A stretch of 52,532 bases of DNA from Bacillota bacterium. GTDB lineage: Bacteria; Bacillota; Sulfobacillia; DUSP01; JBFMCS01. Below are positions 22,473 through 31,209 of the stretch, piece after piece; position 1 is the stretch's first letter, and the number at the start of each line of letters is the position of its first letter. Below the pieces are notes generated by a model. That model saw nothing but the letters and a program-made list of their open reading frames with translations, was not told the origin of the DNA and searched no databases. A program made the position numbers and the translations under genes. Location: positions 1-52,532 of the forward strand of contig JBFMCS010000001.1 of assembly GCA_040754315.1 (NCBI GenBank), given 5' to 3'.

Positions 22473-24203
22473 TTACGCACCTCGGAGCCTCTTCCCCTCT
22501 TCCTCCACCAGCACCCTGCGAAGCACCTTGCCCACCATGGTCTTGGGCAGGGCATCCCGGAACTCCAGGCTCTTTGGCACCTTGAACTTGGCTAGGTTCT
22601 CCCTGCAGTACTCTAGCATCTCCTCGACAGTGGCGGCCTGGCCCTCCTTCAGCACCACGTAGGCCTTGATGCTCTCCCCCTTGTAACTGTCAGGGACCCC
22701 CGCGGCCACTGCCTCCTTAACCTTGGGGTGCCCATAGAGCACCTCTTCTATCTCCCTGGGGTAGACATTGAAACCCCCCGCAATTATCATGTCCTTCTTC
22801 CTGTCCACGATCTTGAAGAAACCATCCTCGTCCATGCTGGCTATGTCCCCCGTGAACAGCCAGCCATCCTTGATGGCCATCTGGGTCTCCTCAGGCCGCT
22901 GCCAGTATTCCCTCATTACCTGGGGGCCCTTCACCGCCAGCTCACCGGTGGCCCCCGCGGTGAGGTCCTCTCCCGTCTCCAGGTCCACCACCTTTGCCTG
23001 TGTGTCCGGGAAGGGAATCCCTATACACCCAACCTTCCTGTGGCCGTACACCGGATTGCAGTGAGTGACAGGAGATGCCTCGGAGAGCCCGTAGCCCTCC
23101 ACTAGGCGCCCGCCGGTGAGACGCTCGAACTGTGCCTGGACCTCCACGGGGAGGGGGGCTGCCCCGCTGATGCACGCCTTGATGGACTTCAGGTCATACC
23201 TGGAGACATCCGGGGCATTGTTAATGGCCACGTACATGGTGGGAACCCCTGGGAATATGGTGGGCCTGTACCGGTTTATGCTCCGGAGTATCATCTTCAG
23301 GTCGAACCTGGGCACCAGGACCAGTGCTGACCCTGTGGTCACCGCCAGGTTCATGCAGGTTGTCATGCCGTAACTGTGGAAGAAAGGAAGCACCGACATG
23401 ATGATCTCCTTGCCGTCCTCGAAGTCCGTCAGCCAGGAGCGGGTCTGAGCAGCATTGGCCGCCAGGTTGCGGTGGGACAATACTGCCCCTTTGGGGGTTC
23501 CCGTGGTTCCCCCCGTGTACAGGAGGCAGGCCACGTCCTCGCACCTCGTGTTGACTTCCGGTGGAGGAGCCCCCCTGTGCTTGGCCATCAGGGACCCGAG
23601 CCAGTGGTCTTCCTCCTCCAGGTGAACACGTTCTCCCTCCTTTCTCTCCTTGAAGATGGTATAAAGGAGGCGAAGGAAGGGAGGGAAGTGCTCCTTGATG
23701 CCGGTGACGATGAGGTTCCTGATGCCTATCCGGTCTTTGATCCTCCGGGCCATGGGATAGAACCTAGCCATGGTGACGAGGGTTTCCGACCCACTGTCCT
23801 TCAGCTGGAACTCCAGTTCCCTCTCGGTGTACAGGGGATTACAGGGTACCATCACCGCGCCTGCCTTCAGCCCTCCATAGAAACATGTCGCCATCTGCGG
23901 GCAGTTGGGCAGGTGCACTGCAACGCGGTCCCCCTCTTGGACTCCTAGTGCCGCCAGGGCAGCGCTGAATGTCTCCACCGACCCCTTAAGCTCATTGTAG
24001 GATAGTCTTGTGCCTAAGAACAGCATCGCTGTGTTGTGAGGATACCTCTCCGCTGATTGCGCCAGCAGCTCGTGGAGAGTGAGCTCCGGGTAGGCGATGG
24101 CCGGGGGCACGCCGGGTTCGTAGCTCCTAAACCAGGGGCTATCCATTCCCTCCATCTCCTCCCAACGTAGGATGACCGGCTCGGCCACGTCCATACGAGC
24201 CAC
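22473..24203 (-). CDS. Long-chain-fatty-acid-CoA ligase-type AMP-forming synthetase
   Basis: This 576-residue adenylate-forming enzyme activates a fatty or other carboxylic acid through an acyl-AMP and then forms the CoA thioester. LLYTGGTTGTPKGAVLSH is the ATP-binding P-loop motif, VEGYGLSEASPVTH the adenine/Tyr-Gly motif, DGWLFTGDIASMDEDGF and IVDRKKDMIIAGGFNVYP the hinge motifs. LPKTMVGKVLRR contains the catalytic lysine. The overall pattern is FadD-like. The start is GTG at 24203 (GTG GCT CGT ATG), or the ATG nine bases on. It follows the OB-like gene after a 170-base AT-rich gap that may hold its promoter. Confidence 0.9.
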   Translation of the reverse strand: MARMDVAEPVILRWEEMEGMDSPWFRSYEPGVPPAIAYPELTLHELLAQSAERYPHNTAMLFLGTRLSYNELKGSVETFSAALAALGVQEGDRVAVHLPNCPQMATCFYGGLKAGAVMVPCNPLYTERELEFQLKDSGSETLVTMARFYPMARRIKDRIGIRNLIVTGIKEHFPPFLRLLYTIFKERKEGERVHLEEEDHWLGSLMAKHRGAPPPEVNTRCEDVACLLYTGGTTGTPKGAVLSHRNLAANAAQTRSWLTDFEDGKEIIMSVLPFFHSYGMTTCMNLAVTTGSALVLVPRFDLKMILRSINRYRPTIFPGVPTMYVAINNAPDVSRYDLKSIKACISGAAPLPVEVQAQFERLTGGRLVEGYGLSEASPVTHCNPVYGHRKVGCIGIPFPDTQAKVVDLETGEDLTAGATGELAVKGPQVMREYWQRPEETQMAIKDGWLFTGDIASMDEDGFFKIVDRKKDMIIAGGFNVYPREIEEVLYGHPKVKEAVAAGVPDSYKGESIKAYVVLKEGQAATVEEMLEYCRENLAKFKVPKSLEFRDALPKTMVGKVLRRVLVEEEGKRLRGA

Positions 24204-24373: not shown

Positions 24374-25048
24374 TCACGGGGCAGCGTCTGGTGTCGTTTC
24401 CGTAATGACCTGTTTCCCCGTTATGAAAACGTAGGCGAATATCACGAAGCCCACGCTGGGACCCATGGGGCCCAAGAGCAAGATCTTGAAGAGGTAGGGA
24501 GACAGCACCAGCAAAAGAGCGGGGATCAAGAGGTAGCGCCGGTACCTCATGGAGAGCCTGGCCCGGGAAACAGGCTCTCCCTCCTGCCAGTAGACAGACA
24601 CAGCCCTCTCACCCTCATGTGGCTCGGGGACCTCCAGGGGTATCCCTGCAAGGCCAGGGTAGGCCTGAGCCTCGGGGGGAATCACGGCTATGCCCCTTGC
24701 TTCCACGAAGATCCTCTTGTCCGGGGAGAGCTTCAACCGTCCTATGACCTGCATCACTTGGCCCTTCTCGATGGTGGTGTTGAGCATCATGTTCTCGAAC
24801 TCCACCAGGACCCGCCCGGTGTTGTCGTCCAGGGTCCCCCAGAGCACGTTGCCAACGACCTCCAGGTGTACCAGGCGGCCGTCCAAAGCAAACCGCCGTT
24901 CCTCTCCCTTCAGGGAGCGGGGGCGTATGCGGTCCACAGACAGCGACAGCTGTTCGATTGTCATGGGCGGGAAAGCCTTAAGGCGCTTCTGCTTGCGATG
25001 CTCCTCCCTTTGCTCCAGCTTCCGAAGGAAGGAGGGCTTATCTTCCAT
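24374..25048 (-). CDS. Unrecognised protein, OB-like N-terminal part and C-terminal membrane anchor
   Basis: I do not recognise this 224-residue protein. A charged N terminus (EQREEHRKQKRLK) leads to a beta-rich stretch. VVGNVLWGTLDDNTGRVLVEFENMML and KGQVMQVIGRLKLSPDKRIFVEARGI resemble the pattern of a small OB fold such as those in nucleic-acid-binding proteins. The C-terminal third has two adjacent hydrophobic helices (YLLIPALLLVLSPYLFKILLL and VGFVIFAYVFITGKQ), so it is anchored with the OB part probably cytoplasmic. It starts 23 bases after the MttB-family gene stop, suggesting one transcript. Function is not inferred. Confidence 0.6.
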   Translation of the reverse strand: MEDKPSFLRKLEQREEHRKQKRLKAFPPMTIEQLSLSVDRIRPRSLKGEERRFALDGRLVHLEVVGNVLWGTLDDNTGRVLVEFENMMLNTTIEKGQVMQVIGRLKLSPDKRIFVEARGIAVIPPEAQAYPGLAGIPLEVPEPHEGERAVSVYWQEGEPVSRARLSMRYRRYLLIPALLLVLSPYLFKILLLGPMGPSVGFVIFAYVFITGKQVITETTPDAAP

Positions 25049-25071: not shown

Positions 25072-26502
25072 CTAGAGTACCAGCCCTGCCTTCTGGAGAA
25101 TCCTCTCCAGCTCCTTTACCTGGTATTCATCCAGGAATCCAGGGAGCGGGTCCCGGAGGATCTCCTTCACTCGTTCCCTAGCCATGGAGAGTATGCCGGG
25201 CTTACCTTCCTGGACCCAGGCATCATGAGAGAGCCGTTGGTACAGCTGGGGTATGTAGTGCTCCCCCAGGCGTACCAGGCGGCAAGTAGACTCCTCCGCC
25301 AGGAAGTTGCCCCCCGGACCAACGCTCTTGATGAGTTCCACGAGGCTCATGCCAGGACCTGTGTCTATCCCCTTCTGGACCCGCTCTATCTGGAGACACA
25401 TCTCTGCGTCCAGCACCATCTGCTCCAGGCACAGGCACTGGTCGGACTGGAGGAGCCCGATGCCTATGACGCCGTCGGACCCAGCGAGCATGGGGATGAT
25501 GCCGTTCGTTACCTTCTCCAGGGAAGCCTGCACACCTGGCTCCACCGCATCGGTAACAAGTCCCGTGGTAATGCTGGGCAGGCCGTAGTAGCCAGCCATT
25601 TCCGCGCACGCCGCGTTTATGAGGCCCTCTTCCGGAGCCCCTGCGGCAAAGGTCCCGCGTCTCATGTCCATGACAGACCCAGCGGCCCCATAGACTACCG
25701 GGGTTCCGGGGGTGCATGACTGCAGCAGCGTCAAGGAGCTCAGTACCTCCACGTTGTTGACGATGACGGTTCCCATGAGGCTTGCAGGGGCTGTGGCCCC
25801 CGCCATGGGCATGGGAAGAGGCACCACGGGGACACCGTACTCGGTCAGGGCCATAACCGCTTCAGTCATGGGCCCGTCGTGTCTCAGGGGCGAGACGGGG
25901 CAGCACACCACTGAGAACACCCTCCTGGCCGCCGCCTGCTCTCTTCCCCCGGTAAGCACTTGGAGGGCCTCAAACACGAATGGCACCTCCTGGGGGCGGT
26001 GGATCTCATGCTGGATGTGCTTGCCCGTCCACCGGGCCGCCTCGAAGAACTCCTTCAGGGGCCTGACGTTTGCGGGCACATCCCCCGCGATTACCGGCCC
26101 CCAGTAAATCCTCACTGGATCCAGGGCCTCGGCGATAATGGTGGCCTGTACCAGGTCCTTGAGGGTCGACGGCCTCTGCTGCCCTGTGTCGAAATCCCGG
26201 GTATAGCTGCCAGAGCCATCGGTACCCACATGGCAACAGCTGCCGTCCAGGGCCGCGTCCATCTCAGGGTTCAAGCCCCCTAGGGTGACGCTGGAGGGGG
26301 CCCTGCCAAGCGCCTCCTCGACGAGGCCCGGGGGTATCAGGGCCCTCTTAGCGCCGAAGTCCACCTTTGCGCCTGAGTCCGCCAGGCATCGAAGTGCGGT
26401 ATCGCTGGGAAACTCCACGCCAGTCTCCGCCAGTATTTCCAGGGAGGCCTGGTGAATCCTGTGCCTCTCCTCAGGAGAGAGCACCGATAGGACGGTTTCC
26501 AT
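25072..26502 (-). CDS. MttB-family methyltransferase without pyrrolysine
   Basis: This 476-residue TIM-barrel protein belongs to the trimethylamine:corrinoid methyltransferase (MttB) superfamily. TGVEFPSDTALRCLADSGA near the N terminus, GPVIAGDVPANVRPLKEFF, MAGATAPASLMGTVIVNNVEVLS and GSVMDMRRGTFAAGAPEEGLINAA are family blocks. There is no in-frame UAG, so this is the large non-Pyl subgroup. Characterised members demethylate quaternary amines such as glycine betaine, proline betaine, carnitine or gamma-butyrobetaine, handing the methyl to a corrinoid protein. No corrinoid protein, RamA-like activator or MtbA homologue is in the window. The ATG at 26502 is favoured since GGGGGGTG lies seven bases upstream. 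Downstream of the symporter operon. Confidence 0.8.
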   Translation of the reverse strand: METVLSVLSPEERHRIHQASLEILAETGVEFPSDTALRCLADSGAKVDFGAKRALIPPGLVEEALGRAPSSVTLGGLNPEMDAALDGSCCHVGTDGSGSYTRDFDTGQQRPSTLKDLVQATIIAEALDPVRIYWGPVIAGDVPANVRPLKEFFEAARWTGKHIQHEIHRPQEVPFVFEALQVLTGGREQAAARRVFSVVCCPVSPLRHDGPMTEAVMALTEYGVPVVPLPMPMAGATAPASLMGTVIVNNVEVLSSLTLLQSCTPGTPVVYGAAGSVMDMRRGTFAAGAPEEGLINAACAEMAGYYGLPSITTGLVTDAVEPGVQASLEKVTNGIIPMLAGSDGVIGIGLLQSDQCLCLEQMVLDAEMCLQIERVQKGIDTGPGMSLVELIKSVGPGGNFLAEESTCRLVRLGEHYIPQLYQRLSHDAWVQEGKPGILSMARERVKEILRDPLPGFLDEYQVKELERILQKAGLVL

Positions 26503-26589
26503 ATGGCCCACACCCCCCATTGCGAGCCCCGCGGCCTTGGCCCCGGGTGAAAGAGGGGGGAGGTCGAGACGTACCCCCCCCTCGCCAGG

Positions 26590-27915
26590 TCAGACGTTCT
26601 TGTTCGGGAGATCCCGGAAGGCCTTGATCACAAGGTATAACCCAATGAACAGGAGGATGTACAGGAAGGTGATACTCCCCGCTATGAGCCCGGAGTTGTG
26701 GAAGTAGTAGTTGCCGGGAACGATCTCAAGGTACGGGGCGCCAAAGGGCATCCCGCTGGCTTCGGCCCATCCCAGGCTGTTGTGCTCCTGGCTCCACCTG
26801 ACCATGTCCATGGGACCGTGAAGATTGAAGACATTGTCCTTCCACAGGTAGTGGGCGCTGCGGGTTCCCAGGGCGAAGGGGAGACGGGTCCCCTGCTCCC
26901 TCTCCCAGGAAGCGGCGAGCTCCGTGGGCCCGTAGGGCTCCCACCATGGCTTTGGCTGCCAGCCGCTGGGGATGACAAATGTTATGGCCTCGCCATCCCT
27001 GAGGGTCCAGCCCGTGGGTACCCCTTCATAGTCTACGGTGTACTCGAGGTAGTCTTCACTGTGGCCAAGGATGGCCGCGGCATCCTCCCCCGGGGGAAGA
27101 AGGGAGCAGGCCTCCCAGATCCAGCACGTGTAGTTGTCGGGATAGGGGTACCTGTACTCGTACAGCAGATAGGCCACGGCGGTCTCCATGTACAGGTCAC
27201 TGGCATCCGCGCCTATGGTGCCCGAGAGGACAAGGTCATACATCCAGTAACCCACATTGGTCCAGGCCTCGAACAGCCGACCAGCCAGGGCCTCCAAGCC
27301 CCAGCCTACAGCCAGGATCTCCACCTCAACCCCTCCCGGTCCTCCGGAGACATCCACCTCAAAGATGCCGCCGTCTTCCGGTGAGAGCACTAGGTCGTCT
27401 TCATAGGCCAACGCACAGTCGAGCCTGTCATAGGCGTCATAGATGGCATCCAGCCAGGAAGTGACTACCTCATCGCCCTTTTCCTCCCAGGTGTCCTCCA
27501 GGTTCGCTATCTCCCTGTCGGAAAACCCCAGGACGGCCTTGGCCGCCGTGGCATCCAGGACCAGGGTGGCAGCGATCTTTACCGTGTACTCGTCAAACCC
27601 GTAGTCACCGCCAGGGTCCATCTGGGCAATGCGCTGGTCGTCCAGGTAGGTCATACTGAGGTTCTCTATGGTCAGGCTGCCCCCCGCCGCCTGCCTCAGG
27701 AGAGGAAGGCTTGAAAGAGTGAGCTCATCGAGGTTCAGCGCCTCCATGACCAGGTACCCGTCGGCATAGACGGTGCCATCCTCCTCATAGATGTCCTCGG
27801 GGTCCAGCCAGATCTCCTGGAACTCGAAGGTTACCTGGCGGGCACCGGTGGCAGCGGCAGCCAGGGGTACAGCCGCCACGAACAGGAAAAGGAGAGCAAC
27901 GGTTAACCGTTTCAC
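26590..27915 (-). CDS. Unrecognised exported, C-terminally anchored protein of the symporter operon
   Basis: This 441-residue protein has a signal peptide (LTVALLFLFVAAVPLAAAA), a large acidic, tryptophan- and tyrosine-rich extracellular part and one C-terminal transmembrane helix (GSITFLYILLFIGLYLVIKAF), so most of it faces outside. An early segment with FEFQEIWLDPEDIYEEDGTVYADG and repeated hydrophobic-acidic strands suggests a beta-rich fold. I recognise no family. Its GTG start overlaps the stop of the preceding 160-residue membrane protein (GTGA), which itself overlaps the sodium/solute symporter stop. The three are therefore one tightly coupled unit. A substrate-binding or gating role for the symporter is inference. 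Confidence 0.65.
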   Translation of the reverse strand: MKRLTVALLFLFVAAVPLAAAATGARQVTFEFQEIWLDPEDIYEEDGTVYADGYLVMEALNLDELTLSSLPLLRQAAGGSLTIENLSMTYLDDQRIAQMDPGGDYGFDEYTVKIAATLVLDATAAKAVLGFSDREIANLEDTWEEKGDEVVTSWLDAIYDAYDRLDCALAYEDDLVLSPEDGGIFEVDVSGGPGGVEVEILAVGWGLEALAGRLFEAWTNVGYWMYDLVLSGTIGADASDLYMETAVAYLLYEYRYPYPDNYTCWIWEACSLLPPGEDAAAILGHSEDYLEYTVDYEGVPTGWTLRDGEAITFVIPSGWQPKPWWEPYGPTELAASWEREQGTRLPFALGTRSAHYLWKDNVFNLHGPMDMVRWSQEHNSLGWAEASGMPFGAPYLEIVPGNYYFHNSGLIAGSITFLYILLFIGLYLVIKAFRDLPNKNV

Positions 27916-28394
27916 GGCTGCCCACCCCCTTCCTCGTGGCTGGCCTTGTTATTCGCCCGCCTGAGCCGCTCGGTCAAGGGGTGCCCAAAGATGGCCTGGT
28001 AGAAGCTGGGCTGGTCGTACACGGTCTCTACGTGCTGCCACTCTGACACCGTGATGTAGATGATGAACAACACACCATATATGCCGATGAGGCACCAGTA
28101 GGCAACGCCGATGAAGGGTTGGTTGTACACCCGGCAGGACCAGTACAGGATGAAGTACACCCCGTACCAGAAGAAGGGCCCCAGGAATGCCAGGATGAAG
28201 AGCTCCCGGTCAAACCAGGTGGCTCCCTGGTCAATGCTGGGGTCCTGGACAGGGGCCGCGTGGCCCTTCTTATCTAGGACCTTCGTCCTCAGGTCGTATA
28301 TGAACCACGCGAAGAAGAACATAACCACAAGGAAGATGAAGGCTACTCCGCCAACGGTCAGGTAGTCCTTGAAGTCCCAGTCAGCGGTTCCCAT
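27912..28394 (-). CDS. Unrecognised three-to-four-helix membrane protein overlapping the symporter gene
   Basis: This 160-residue integral membrane protein has helices at about 13-33, 66-85, 95-118. Conserved-looking aromatic clusters include FLGPFFWYGVYFILYWSCRVYNQ and a cytoplasmic charged tail ending in ANNKASHEEGGG. It starts inside the symporter stop codon (TGATG) and its own stop overlaps the next start. It is larger than the roughly 90-residue DUF4212 small subunits known beside some SSS symporters and shows no obvious similarity. An accessory subunit of the transporter is the simplest reading, not proven. Confidence 0.65.
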   Translation of the reverse strand: MGTADWDFKDYLTVGGVAFIFLVVMFFFAWFIYDLRTKVLDKKGHAAPVQDPSIDQGATWFDRELFILAFLGPFFWYGVYFILYWSCRVYNQPFIGVAYWCLIGIYGVLFIIYITVSEWQHVETVYDQPSFYQAIFGHPLTERLRRANNKASHEEGGGQP

Positions 28395-29899
28395 CAGCTG
28401 GCAACCTCCTTCCGTTGGGCCAGGGCCTTGGTGTCTATGGGCTTGCCGAACATGTTGCCTATGAGGTAGGCCAGGAGCGCCAGGGGGAAGGAGAAGTAGA
28501 TGGCCATCTCAGCCCACAGGTTCACCTCGGCTCCGAATACCTGGACCGTCCAGATGTAGGTGTCCCAGCCCTCCAGCAGGCTGCCCTTGGCAAACACCAG
28601 GAATATGTATACGCAGGCAGACACGAACCCTACCAGGGCTGCCATGGCCCCGCCCACCATGCTTTTCCTGAAGGGCCAGAAGAAGGCCCCCAGGATGGGT
28701 ATCAGGCAGACAGAGGTGAGCACGGCGCACTTCAGGACCTCTACCAGCAGTATCCTGGGAAACACGAACATCATGAAGAACGAGACCACGAACATCCCCA
28801 CCAGGCACCACTTGGTAAGCTTGAGGACCGACTTGTCACTCATGGTAGGCCGGAAGATCTTTCTCACGATGTCGTGGGACAGGTTGGCCGCGGATACCAG
28901 TAGGTACGAGTCGATGGTGGACATGATGGCCGCCAGCGCCCCCGCAAGGAACAGGCCCTGAAGCCCGTAGGGAAGGAACGTCAATACCGTAGTGATGAGG
29001 GCGTAGTCCTGCTTTATCTGGAACCCGGGGAAGGCAGCCCAGCCCACCAGCCCGAAGGCCACCAGGACCTTGTCAATGAGGATCCAGATGGTGATCAGGG
29101 CAACGAAACCCCTGACCGCTGTCTTGTGATCCCGCGCAGCAAAGAACCTCTGGTAGAATACGGGCTCCACTATGACAGTGAGGCCCATGGTGGCGTAGAC
29201 AGCCATGATTACCCAGGAGAGCGAGCCTCCCGATGGGTCCAGGTGCCACTCAGGGTTCATGGCCAGTATGTGGCTCCAGCCGCCCATCTTGTAGAGGGCG
29301 ATGGGCAGGGCGACGATCATGCCCAGCCACATCACAGTGAACTGGACCATGTCGGTGACGGCCACCGCCCAGAGGCCACCCATGAGGGTGTAGGCTAGTA
29401 CCACCAGGCCCCCCACCAGGGCGCCCAACCACATGGGCCAGCCCAGCCACACATCAAAGGTGACACCCAGGGCCATGAGATGCGGGATGGGCAGGCAGTA
29501 GAAGATGCTGCTCAAAGCAGCGAAGAACCGGGCCACGTTGCCGTAGAACCTTCCCAGCACATCCGGCAGCGTGAGATCCCCAAGTATCCTCAGGCGAGCC
29601 ACAAGGAAGAATACGAGGAAGATGGCAGCGAAGTCGTAGGGTGGGTAGTACGCTATCTGAGCTATCAGCCCCTCCGCGTAGAAGAAGCCAGCATCCGCAT
29701 ACATGTAGACCCCGCCGAAATACGAGGCCATCAGCGTTCCAACCAGAAGGGGCAATGTCATCATGCGCCCCGCCAGCATGTAGTCCTCGAAGTCATCGAT
29801 CCTCTTGGACCATACTGCCCCCACGTAGACCATGCCTGCGAGGTAAATGGCTATGATGATCCAGTCCACTATGTGAGCGGTGCTTGTGCCTATGCCCAC
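28394..29899 (-). CDS. Sodium:solute symporter (SSS) family protein
   Basis: This 501-residue carrier of the SSS/LeuT-fold family has about 13 transmembrane helices. DDFEDYMLAGRMM at the first loop, YTLMGGLWAVAVTDMVQFTVMWLG (the conserved helix with the Na2-site neighbourhood) and LAGALAAIMSTIDSYLLVSAANLSHDIV (the highly conserved helix 8-like signature with S/T residues of the sodium site) are diagnostic. Substrates in the family range from proline and pantothenate to acetate and choline-like compounds; the sequence does not decide. It heads a unit with two overlapping membrane-protein genes and lies 108 bases after the saccharopine-dehydrogenase-like gene. Confidence 0.9.
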   Translation of the reverse strand: MGIGTSTAHIVDWIIIAIYLAGMVYVGAVWSKRIDDFEDYMLAGRMMTLPLLVGTLMASYFGGVYMYADAGFFYAEGLIAQIAYYPPYDFAAIFLVFFLVARLRILGDLTLPDVLGRFYGNVARFFAALSSIFYCLPIPHLMALGVTFDVWLGWPMWLGALVGGLVVLAYTLMGGLWAVAVTDMVQFTVMWLGMIVALPIALYKMGGWSHILAMNPEWHLDPSGGSLSWVIMAVYATMGLTVIVEPVFYQRFFAARDHKTAVRGFVALITIWILIDKVLVAFGLVGWAAFPGFQIKQDYALITTVLTFLPYGLQGLFLAGALAAIMSTIDSYLLVSAANLSHDIVRKIFRPTMSDKSVLKLTKWCLVGMFVVSFFMMFVFPRILLVEVLKCAVLTSVCLIPILGAFFWPFRKSMVGGAMAALVGFVSACVYIFLVFAKGSLLEGWDTYIWTVQVFGAEVNLWAEMAIYFSFPLALLAYLIGNMFGKPIDTKALAQRKEVAS

Positions 29900-30006: not shown

Positions 30007-31209
30007 TCATGCCCCCTTCTTCCTTAGAGTGCTCTCCCTTATGTATATGGCCAGTCCCATTTCTGCCAGGCGTTCCAAGAAGGGATCCGGGTCCAGCTGT
30101 TCCGGGCACACAACGCCAGAGCCCTTGATAGTGCCATCGGCTATCATCTCGGCCGTGGCAACAGGCGGAATACCGGTCTGGTACACCGTGCAGGTGACTC
30201 CCAGCCGCTGGAATGCCTCCTCGTGGCTGTTCATGGTGTACAGGTAGAACTCCTTTTCCTCACCGTTCCTCGCCCCGCGGACGAGGGTGCCCACGCATGA
30301 CCAGCCATGGATCTTGCCGCTGAGTTCCACCGGCTTAGGCAGGAGGGCCGTGACGACATCCCTGGGGACCACCCTGACACCCTTCACTTCCACGGGCTCC
30401 GTCCTATCCAAGCCCAGAAGGTTAAGGGTCTTCAGAACCTGGACCAGCTGGTCATCCAGCGCATACTTAAAGTCACAGTAGCGAAGCCCCTTCCCAATAT
30501 TTCGAGGGAGCATTTCTACTTCCTCGTGGGCTACCGTGTAAACCTTGAGGGCCCCTATGGGATCAGGAAAGGTGAACTCCTCGATGCCGGTCTCCAGGGG
30601 AACACCCAGGATGAACTCCCCGTCCTTGAAGGTCATGGGGGGTTGGACTATGCACTCATCAATGGCAACTTCAGGGGAGAAGTAGAGGGCGAACCTGTAA
30701 CCCTGAACCTCGCCGTTGTCACCGTCCCTGACAAGGATCTCATCCACCCGGTCGAGCCTGTCGGCTGCGTAACGCGCGAATACGTTTGTGCAGCCAGGAT
30801 CCACCCCCATGGAGAGAATCGCCATGCGATCGATCTCCCTGAACCTGGCATCGTACAAGAACTGCTTGCCAATGTGGACGTTCCCTGGGAGTTCCACCAG
30901 CCCGTCAGAGGCCATGTCCAGGTAGTGCACCCGGGCCCTCAGGGCGGCCTCCATGATATGAAGGTTGAACCTGGGCACCACAGCGTTTATGACCATGTCC
31001 ACCCCTGCGAAGGCTTGGGCCATCTCCTCCACGCCAGCGGCGTTGACCCTGGCCACCTCAAATCTGGTGTCGTTGATCTGAGCCCCGAGGCGCTCGGCCC
31101 AGGTCGTGTCTAGATCCGCCAAGACAATCCTCTCAAATACGTCACGCTCTGCCATCTTCTTGGCTATGACAGTACCTACTCCTCCGACGCCTAGCACCAT
31201 GACTCTCAC
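30007..31209 (-). CDS. Saccharopine dehydrogenase-like NAD(P)-binding oxidoreductase
   Basis: This 400-residue protein begins with the Rossmann motif MVLGVGGVGTVIAKKMAE. DVFERIVLADLD ends the second strand, then VVPRFNLHIMEAALRARVHYLDM and SMGVDPGCTNVFARYAADRL match the saccharopine dehydrogenase/carboxynorspermidine-synthase superfamily. Members link or split amino-acid adducts such as saccharopine or lysine-derived imines. The ATG/GTG at 31209 follows TTAGGAGG. It is upstream of, and probably cotranscribed with, the symporter unit. Substrate unknown; an amino-acid or opine-like role would suit the neighbouring transporter. Confidence 0.8.
   Translation of the reverse strand: MRVMVLGVGGVGTVIAKKMAERDVFERIVLADLDTTWAERLGAQINDTRFEVARVNAAGVEEMAQAFAGVDMVINAVVPRFNLHIMEAALRARVHYLDMASDGLVELPGNVHIGKQFLYDARFREIDRMAILSMGVDPGCTNVFARYAADRLDRVDEILVRDGDNGEVQGYRFALYFSPEVAIDECIVQPPMTFKDGEFILGVPLETGIEEFTFPDPIGALKVYTVAHEEVEMLPRNIGKGLRYCDFKYALDDQLVQVLKTLNLLGLDRTEPVEVKGVRVVPRDVVTALLPKPVELSGKIHGWSCVGTLVRGARNGEEKEFYLYTMNSHEEAFQRLGVTCTVYQTGIPPVATAEMIADGTIKGSGVVCPEQLDPDPFLERLAEMGLAIYIRESTLRKKGA

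Follow-up and report, generated by a model that had tools for sequence, protein, structure and literature searches.

A conserved symporter gene module of Bacillota: a probable, not yet described multi-subunit importer of methylated amines

The window, the whole 52,532-nucleotide stretch of Bacillota DNA analysed here, carries on its minus strand the three overlapping genes that an earlier sequence-only reading had singled out. These encode an SSS sodium:solute symporter of 501 residues, the permease (28394..29899); a 160-residue membrane protein with three predicted transmembrane helices (27912..28394); and a 441-residue protein with a signal peptide, an acidic Trp/Tyr-rich ectodomain and a C-terminal anchor (26590..27915). 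The junctions are also as that reading described them: on the coding strand the symporter stop and the next start share TGATG, and the second stop and third start share GTGA. A purine-rich, ribosome-binding-like stretch lies 5' of each gene. Start/stop overlaps are frequent in bacterial operons and carry little weight by themselves. On the same strand, 69 bp beyond the 441-residue gene, follows an MttB-superfamily methyltransferase gene without a pyrrolysine codon (25072..26520), then after 23 bp the gene for a 224-residue OB-fold-like protein with C-terminal membrane segments (24374..25048), and after a further 170 bp that for an AMP-binding, acyl-CoA-ligase-like protein (22473..24203). A saccharopine-dehydrogenase-like gene, also on the minus strand (30007..31209), lies 107 bp upstream of the symporter gene; no such gene was found beside the corresponding genes in related genomes. 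The sequence-only reading left the MttB-superfamily, OB-fold-like and saccharopine-dehydrogenase-like neighbours unmentioned.

The symporter contains an SSF domain (PF00474, residues 40-422) at 123.2 bits against a cut-off of 22.8. This is its sole domain match, with no BCCT or drug/metabolite-transporter domain, and the NCBIfam superfamily model TIGR00813 scores 135, under its cut-off of 184. SSS proteins (family TC 2.A.21, SLC5) are sodium-coupled permeases. The closest PDB matches are choline transporters, sfCHT (9rws, 1.3e-19) and human CHT1, at only about 19-25% identity to sfCHT. In the alignment the Gln-Arg pair of the choline transporter intracellular gate (PMC13220886) is retained. 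The choline site itself is an aromatic cage formed, in sfCHT numbering, by W99, Y126, W176, W298 and W445 (PMC13220886). In the window protein W99 is replaced by Tyr, and W298 and W445 each by Glu; the Y126 and W176 columns align poorly. Glu at the W298 position is found throughout the subfamily and in more distant SSS proteins, and Glu at the W445 position in the window protein only, its relatives keeping Trp. Because the cage residues are not conserved, assignment as a choline transporter was dropped. As judged from these residues, a cationic, protonatable amine would suit the site.

The two overlapping partners have no family match in Pfam, NCBIfam or the PDB. The second product is indeed a small membrane protein, with three hydrophobic segments. 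With a threshold of E=1 it has no DUF4212-type match in either Pfam or NCBIfam, and its two relatives have none in Pfam. The third has hydrophobic segments at residues 4-22 and 415-433 and a pI of 4.05 between residues 27 and 405, which agrees with the predicted signal peptide, acidic aromatic ectodomain and C-terminal anchor; these features suggest type I membrane topology. Across the three whole proteins of its family the net charge is -47 to -52, each of the 15 aligned Trp is invariant, and Trp and Tyr are enriched in the invariant alignment columns (36/43; p=1e-9). AlphaFold2 models built from alignments of three sequences are poor for both the 160- and the 441-residue protein (mean pLDDT 60 and 48, respectively), and PDB fold searches with these models gave nothing significant. 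The OB-fold match of the 224-residue protein is weak (E 0.0064) and is found in two of three family members.

The module formed by the symporter and its two partners occurs in four genomes from two classes of one phylum: the genome of the window (G000) and three relatives in another class (G436, G461 and G468). Two of the four share a genus. For the 441-residue protein, 398 genomes of the phylum and 98 of the class of G436 were searched, and for the 160-residue protein the 398 and 154 more; the phylum sample yielded G436, and the 98 added G461 and G468. When 84,980 species genomes were scanned for the 441-residue protein by a method that picks up close relatives only, a single one came up, at 50% identity, in the metagenome-assembled genome JPMR_maxbin.103 (locus L010, in G468). 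Relatives of the window proteins are 55-59% identical for the symporter (G436, G461, G468; 60% in a separate comparison with G468), 37-40% for the 160-residue protein (G436, G468), and 50 and 53% for the 441-residue protein.

The module is complete in G436, interrupted by a transposon in G468 and broken up by forks in the assembly of G461. In the assembled parts the partners accompany this symporter subfamily in the same order, which the sequence-only reading had proposed as a check. The G436 contig runs pylS, pylD, mttC, pylB, pylC, symporter (502 aa), 156-aa protein, 441-aa protein, and its four Pyl proteins exceed their NCBIfam cut-offs. Its first junction is TGATG and its second an ATGA overlap. 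The TGATG junction recurs in G461 and, beneath the transposon insertion, in G468, which also has the ATGA overlap between the second and third genes. Thus order and coupling are kept across two classes, which supports a functional unit.

In G468 one contig ends with pylS-pylD-mttC-pylB-pylC-symporter followed by the transposon, and the insertion sequence starts just past the ATG that overlaps the symporter stop (CTGATG). The L010 contig opens with the opposite end of an element of this kind and passes into the 160-residue gene (positions 1-150). The element (start of C104, locus L068; and L010) has inverted repeats at its ends and is flanked on both sides by the 8-bp target duplication GGGGTTTG. 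Rejoined, the empty site reads MGAEGFDFKDYFTIAG, like the other 160-residue proteins. The element is inserted within the first codons of the 160-residue gene, between it and the symporter gene. Beyond the 160- and 441-residue genes, L010 continues with the OB-fold/membrane protein, MttB with an in-frame TAG, an MttB-like gene, MtbB with TAG, and a further superfamily member, MttB3.

In G436 and G461 the last 127 bases of the 441-residue gene are common to two contigs each (the forks involve C51, C80 and C106 in G436, and C176 and C212 in G461). On one contig, in both genomes, MtbB (TAG), MttB (TAG), MttB2 and MttB3 follow, then the genes for a methyl-THF:corrinoid methyltransferase and for an AMP-binding ligase. 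The other leads to MttB2, a regulator (sigma-54-type in G436) and then a second SSS gene, and in G436 the OB-fold protein is called ahead of MttB2. The forks suggest two nearly identical copies of this tail stretch per genome. In G461 the second SSS gene runs through TGATG into the start of another 160-residue gene. Together, the shared tail and this second junction indicate that the module is probably present twice in both genomes. Gene calls in these GC-rich contigs are partly on the wrong strand, and frames were used only with match or family support. A 351-residue gene of the clusters that had been labelled MtrH is the first part of the TAG-containing dimethylamine methyltransferase MtbB.

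Relatives of the 224-residue protein adjoin the 441-residue gene in G468 (44% identity) and G436 (40%), and none is found in 367 other genomes of the phylum. This protein, recurring in the window, G468 and G436, is a probable fourth member of the module. The AMP-binding ligase, 41% identical to the ligases that end the G436 and G461 clusters, appears more loosely tied to it.

Outside the module neither partner was found without the symporter in the genomes searched (398 plus 98 for the 441-residue protein; 398 plus 154 for the 160-residue protein), the latter being absent from the 153 further genomes in the class to which the window belongs. A single match to the 160-residue protein in genome G196 (7e-4, 36% over 62 residues) was taken as chance because the surrounding reading frames show no module gene. 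Nor was the symporter subfamily found alone: every SSS protein above 38% identity in the 398 genomes belongs to the module. With the lack of family matches for the partners, none of the three outcomes that the sequence-only reading named as refuting it was encountered. The next best, in G399, G069 and G080, are 31-38% identical and have no such partners, as is also the case for 37% copies in G468 and G469. Near the G468 copy (L070, G468:C46, 633-4023) lies a saccharopine-dehydrogenase-like gene 51% identical to that of the window, with a 77-residue frame between the two.

PylS is present in all four genomes that carry the module. Among the 98 genomes of the class of G436, 19 of which have PylS above the cut-off, the module occurs in 3 of the 19 and in none of the other 79 (Fisher p=0.006, uncorrected for kinship). 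The remaining 16 PylS-positive genomes lack it, so the module is dispensable for methylamine use. In the window's own genome the module stands by itself: PylS, PylB and PylC are encoded on a different contig, and the TAG-containing MttB and MtbB genes also lie on contigs other than that of the module. MttB-superfamily matches number 28 in this genome, and four of them contain a single in-frame TAG. The window gene has an MTTB domain (PF06253) at 268 bits against a cut-off of 25, reaches 399 bits with the model for MttB proper (TIGR02369), below the cut-off of 525, and is an open frame without TAG. By its identity to MttB3 of L010 (47%, clearly the best within G000 among the copies compared), it is the ortholog of MttB3 in the related clusters. 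As this methyltransferase lacks pyrrolysine, the substrate of the window copy is less certain than that of its relatives.

Because the module of the relatives lies inside a pyrrolysine/methylamine gene cluster, uptake of methylated amines is the favoured reading. The symporter and the 160- and 441-residue proteins, probably with the OB-fold/membrane protein, would form a multi-subunit, sodium-coupled importer of methylated amines feeding MttB/MtbB-type corrinoid methyltransferases, a proposal to which we give about an even chance. The SSS protein would act as the permease, and candidate substrates are trimethylamine, dimethylamine and related quaternary amines. Outside the membrane, the 441-residue protein could draw in and hold the cationic substrate through charge and cation-pi interactions and hand it to the permease; its invariant Trp set, many invariant Tyr and negative charge would provide the basis for cation capture. 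The three-helix protein may join the permease and the 441-residue protein, and the OB-fold/membrane protein may work on the cytoplasmic side. More tentatively, and at less than even probability, this would be a heteromeric SSS transporter, with a three-helix subunit, an anchored cation-capturing ectodomain subunit and perhaps an OB-fold cytoplasmic subunit, serving as a dedicated methylamine importer of pyrrolysine-using bacteria. Against the methylated-amine reading stand the poor models of both partners, the loss of the aromatic cage of choline transporters, the separation of the G000 module from the pyl and TAG-containing methyltransferase genes, the 16 PylS-positive genomes that lack the module, and the small number of independent cases, four genomes with two in one genus. 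Of the three-part sodium-coupled complex envisaged by the sequence-only reading, the functional unit has gained support from the genes, their overlaps, the conserved order and the linkage to pyrrolysine and methylamine methyltransferase genes; we infer complex formation, import and its direction, the compound carried and what each accessory protein does.

One alternative, which we consider rather unlikely though the strongest of those weighed, keeps a single uptake system and changes its substrate to a carboxylated, betaine-like quaternary amine or a derivative of an amino acid. The non-pyrrolysine MttB would demethylate this compound, and either the ligase or the saccharopine-dehydrogenase-like enzyme would act on the product. 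Characterised MttB-superfamily members without pyrrolysine use quaternary amines with an acidic group (PMC12155760), and the window MttB has no pyrrolysine codon. An MttB3 ortholog is present in all three related clusters and the ligase in those of G436 and G461, and a G468 dehydrogenase 51% identical to that of the window lies near a distant SSS gene. However, the dehydrogenase does not adjoin the module elsewhere, the module of the relatives is directly beside pyl genes and trimethylamine and dimethylamine methyltransferases, and the highly acidic ectodomain is easier to reconcile with a substrate of net positive charge than with a zwitterion.

Alternatively, the 160- and 441-residue proteins could stand apart from the transporter as a sensor or envelope pair, whose cotranscription with the symporter would reflect detection or handling of the same amines. 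The sigma-54 regulator in the G436 cluster makes amine sensing plausible, and the absence of a significant fold match for either model would accommodate such a role. We nevertheless regard it as improbable, as the overlap with the symporter is conserved between classes, neither protein occurs without the symporter in the genomes searched, and neither has a signalling domain match in Pfam or NCBIfam. Less probable still, and in our estimate very unlikely, is a lineage-specific cluster around an ordinary stand-alone symporter, with partners that hitchhike and contribute little. Distant SSS homologs do stand alone, and the set is confined to four genomes, two of one genus; yet two classes keep order and coupling at 37-59% protein identity, and two genomes probably hold the block twice.

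Compared with known transporters, the proposed methylamine importer would be unusual. Small membrane proteins of the DUF4212 and DUF485 types are encoded beside SSS symporters, an arrangement that the module shares, but its small protein has 160 residues and three transmembrane helices and is accompanied by an anchored ectodomain protein. The terms subunit, accessory and heteromer are absent from a review of prokaryotic SSS transporters (PMC7918813), whereas the module symporter is encoded with two or three membrane proteins. Known methylamine transporters are few: TmaT, of the BCCT family, is characterised as a sodium/trimethylamine symporter with a LeuT-type fold, and MttP, of the drug/metabolite transporter superfamily, adjoins trimethylamine methyltransferase genes in methanogens and is a candidate whose transport is unproven (PMC11708041). 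Both belong to families other than that of the module symporter, and the paper on them does not use the term subunit (PMC11708041). E. limosum has an EamA transporter in its choline-demethylation cluster (PMC12155760). In our literature search, methylamine uptake by pyrrolysine-using bacteria was not described, and the module is probably an undescribed system of this kind. If so, the pairing of an SSS symporter with an extracellular, membrane-anchored protein would be architecturally unusual in this family, and a LeuT-fold symporter would have its own substrate-binding ectodomain protein. Among LeuT-fold transporters, SGLT2-MAP17 and the heteromeric amino-acid transporters SLC7-SLC3 are examples in which the partner is a small accessory protein or carries a membrane-anchored ectodomain. 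The likeness to the module is in architecture only, as the PDB search gave no sequence relation.

The window's genome also holds an SSS paralog (L006, G000:C56:17279-18619) with three in-frame TAG codons; the stretch read contains neither TAA nor TGA and no frameshift. In this pyl-encoding genome, the gene reflects either TAG readthrough or gene decay.
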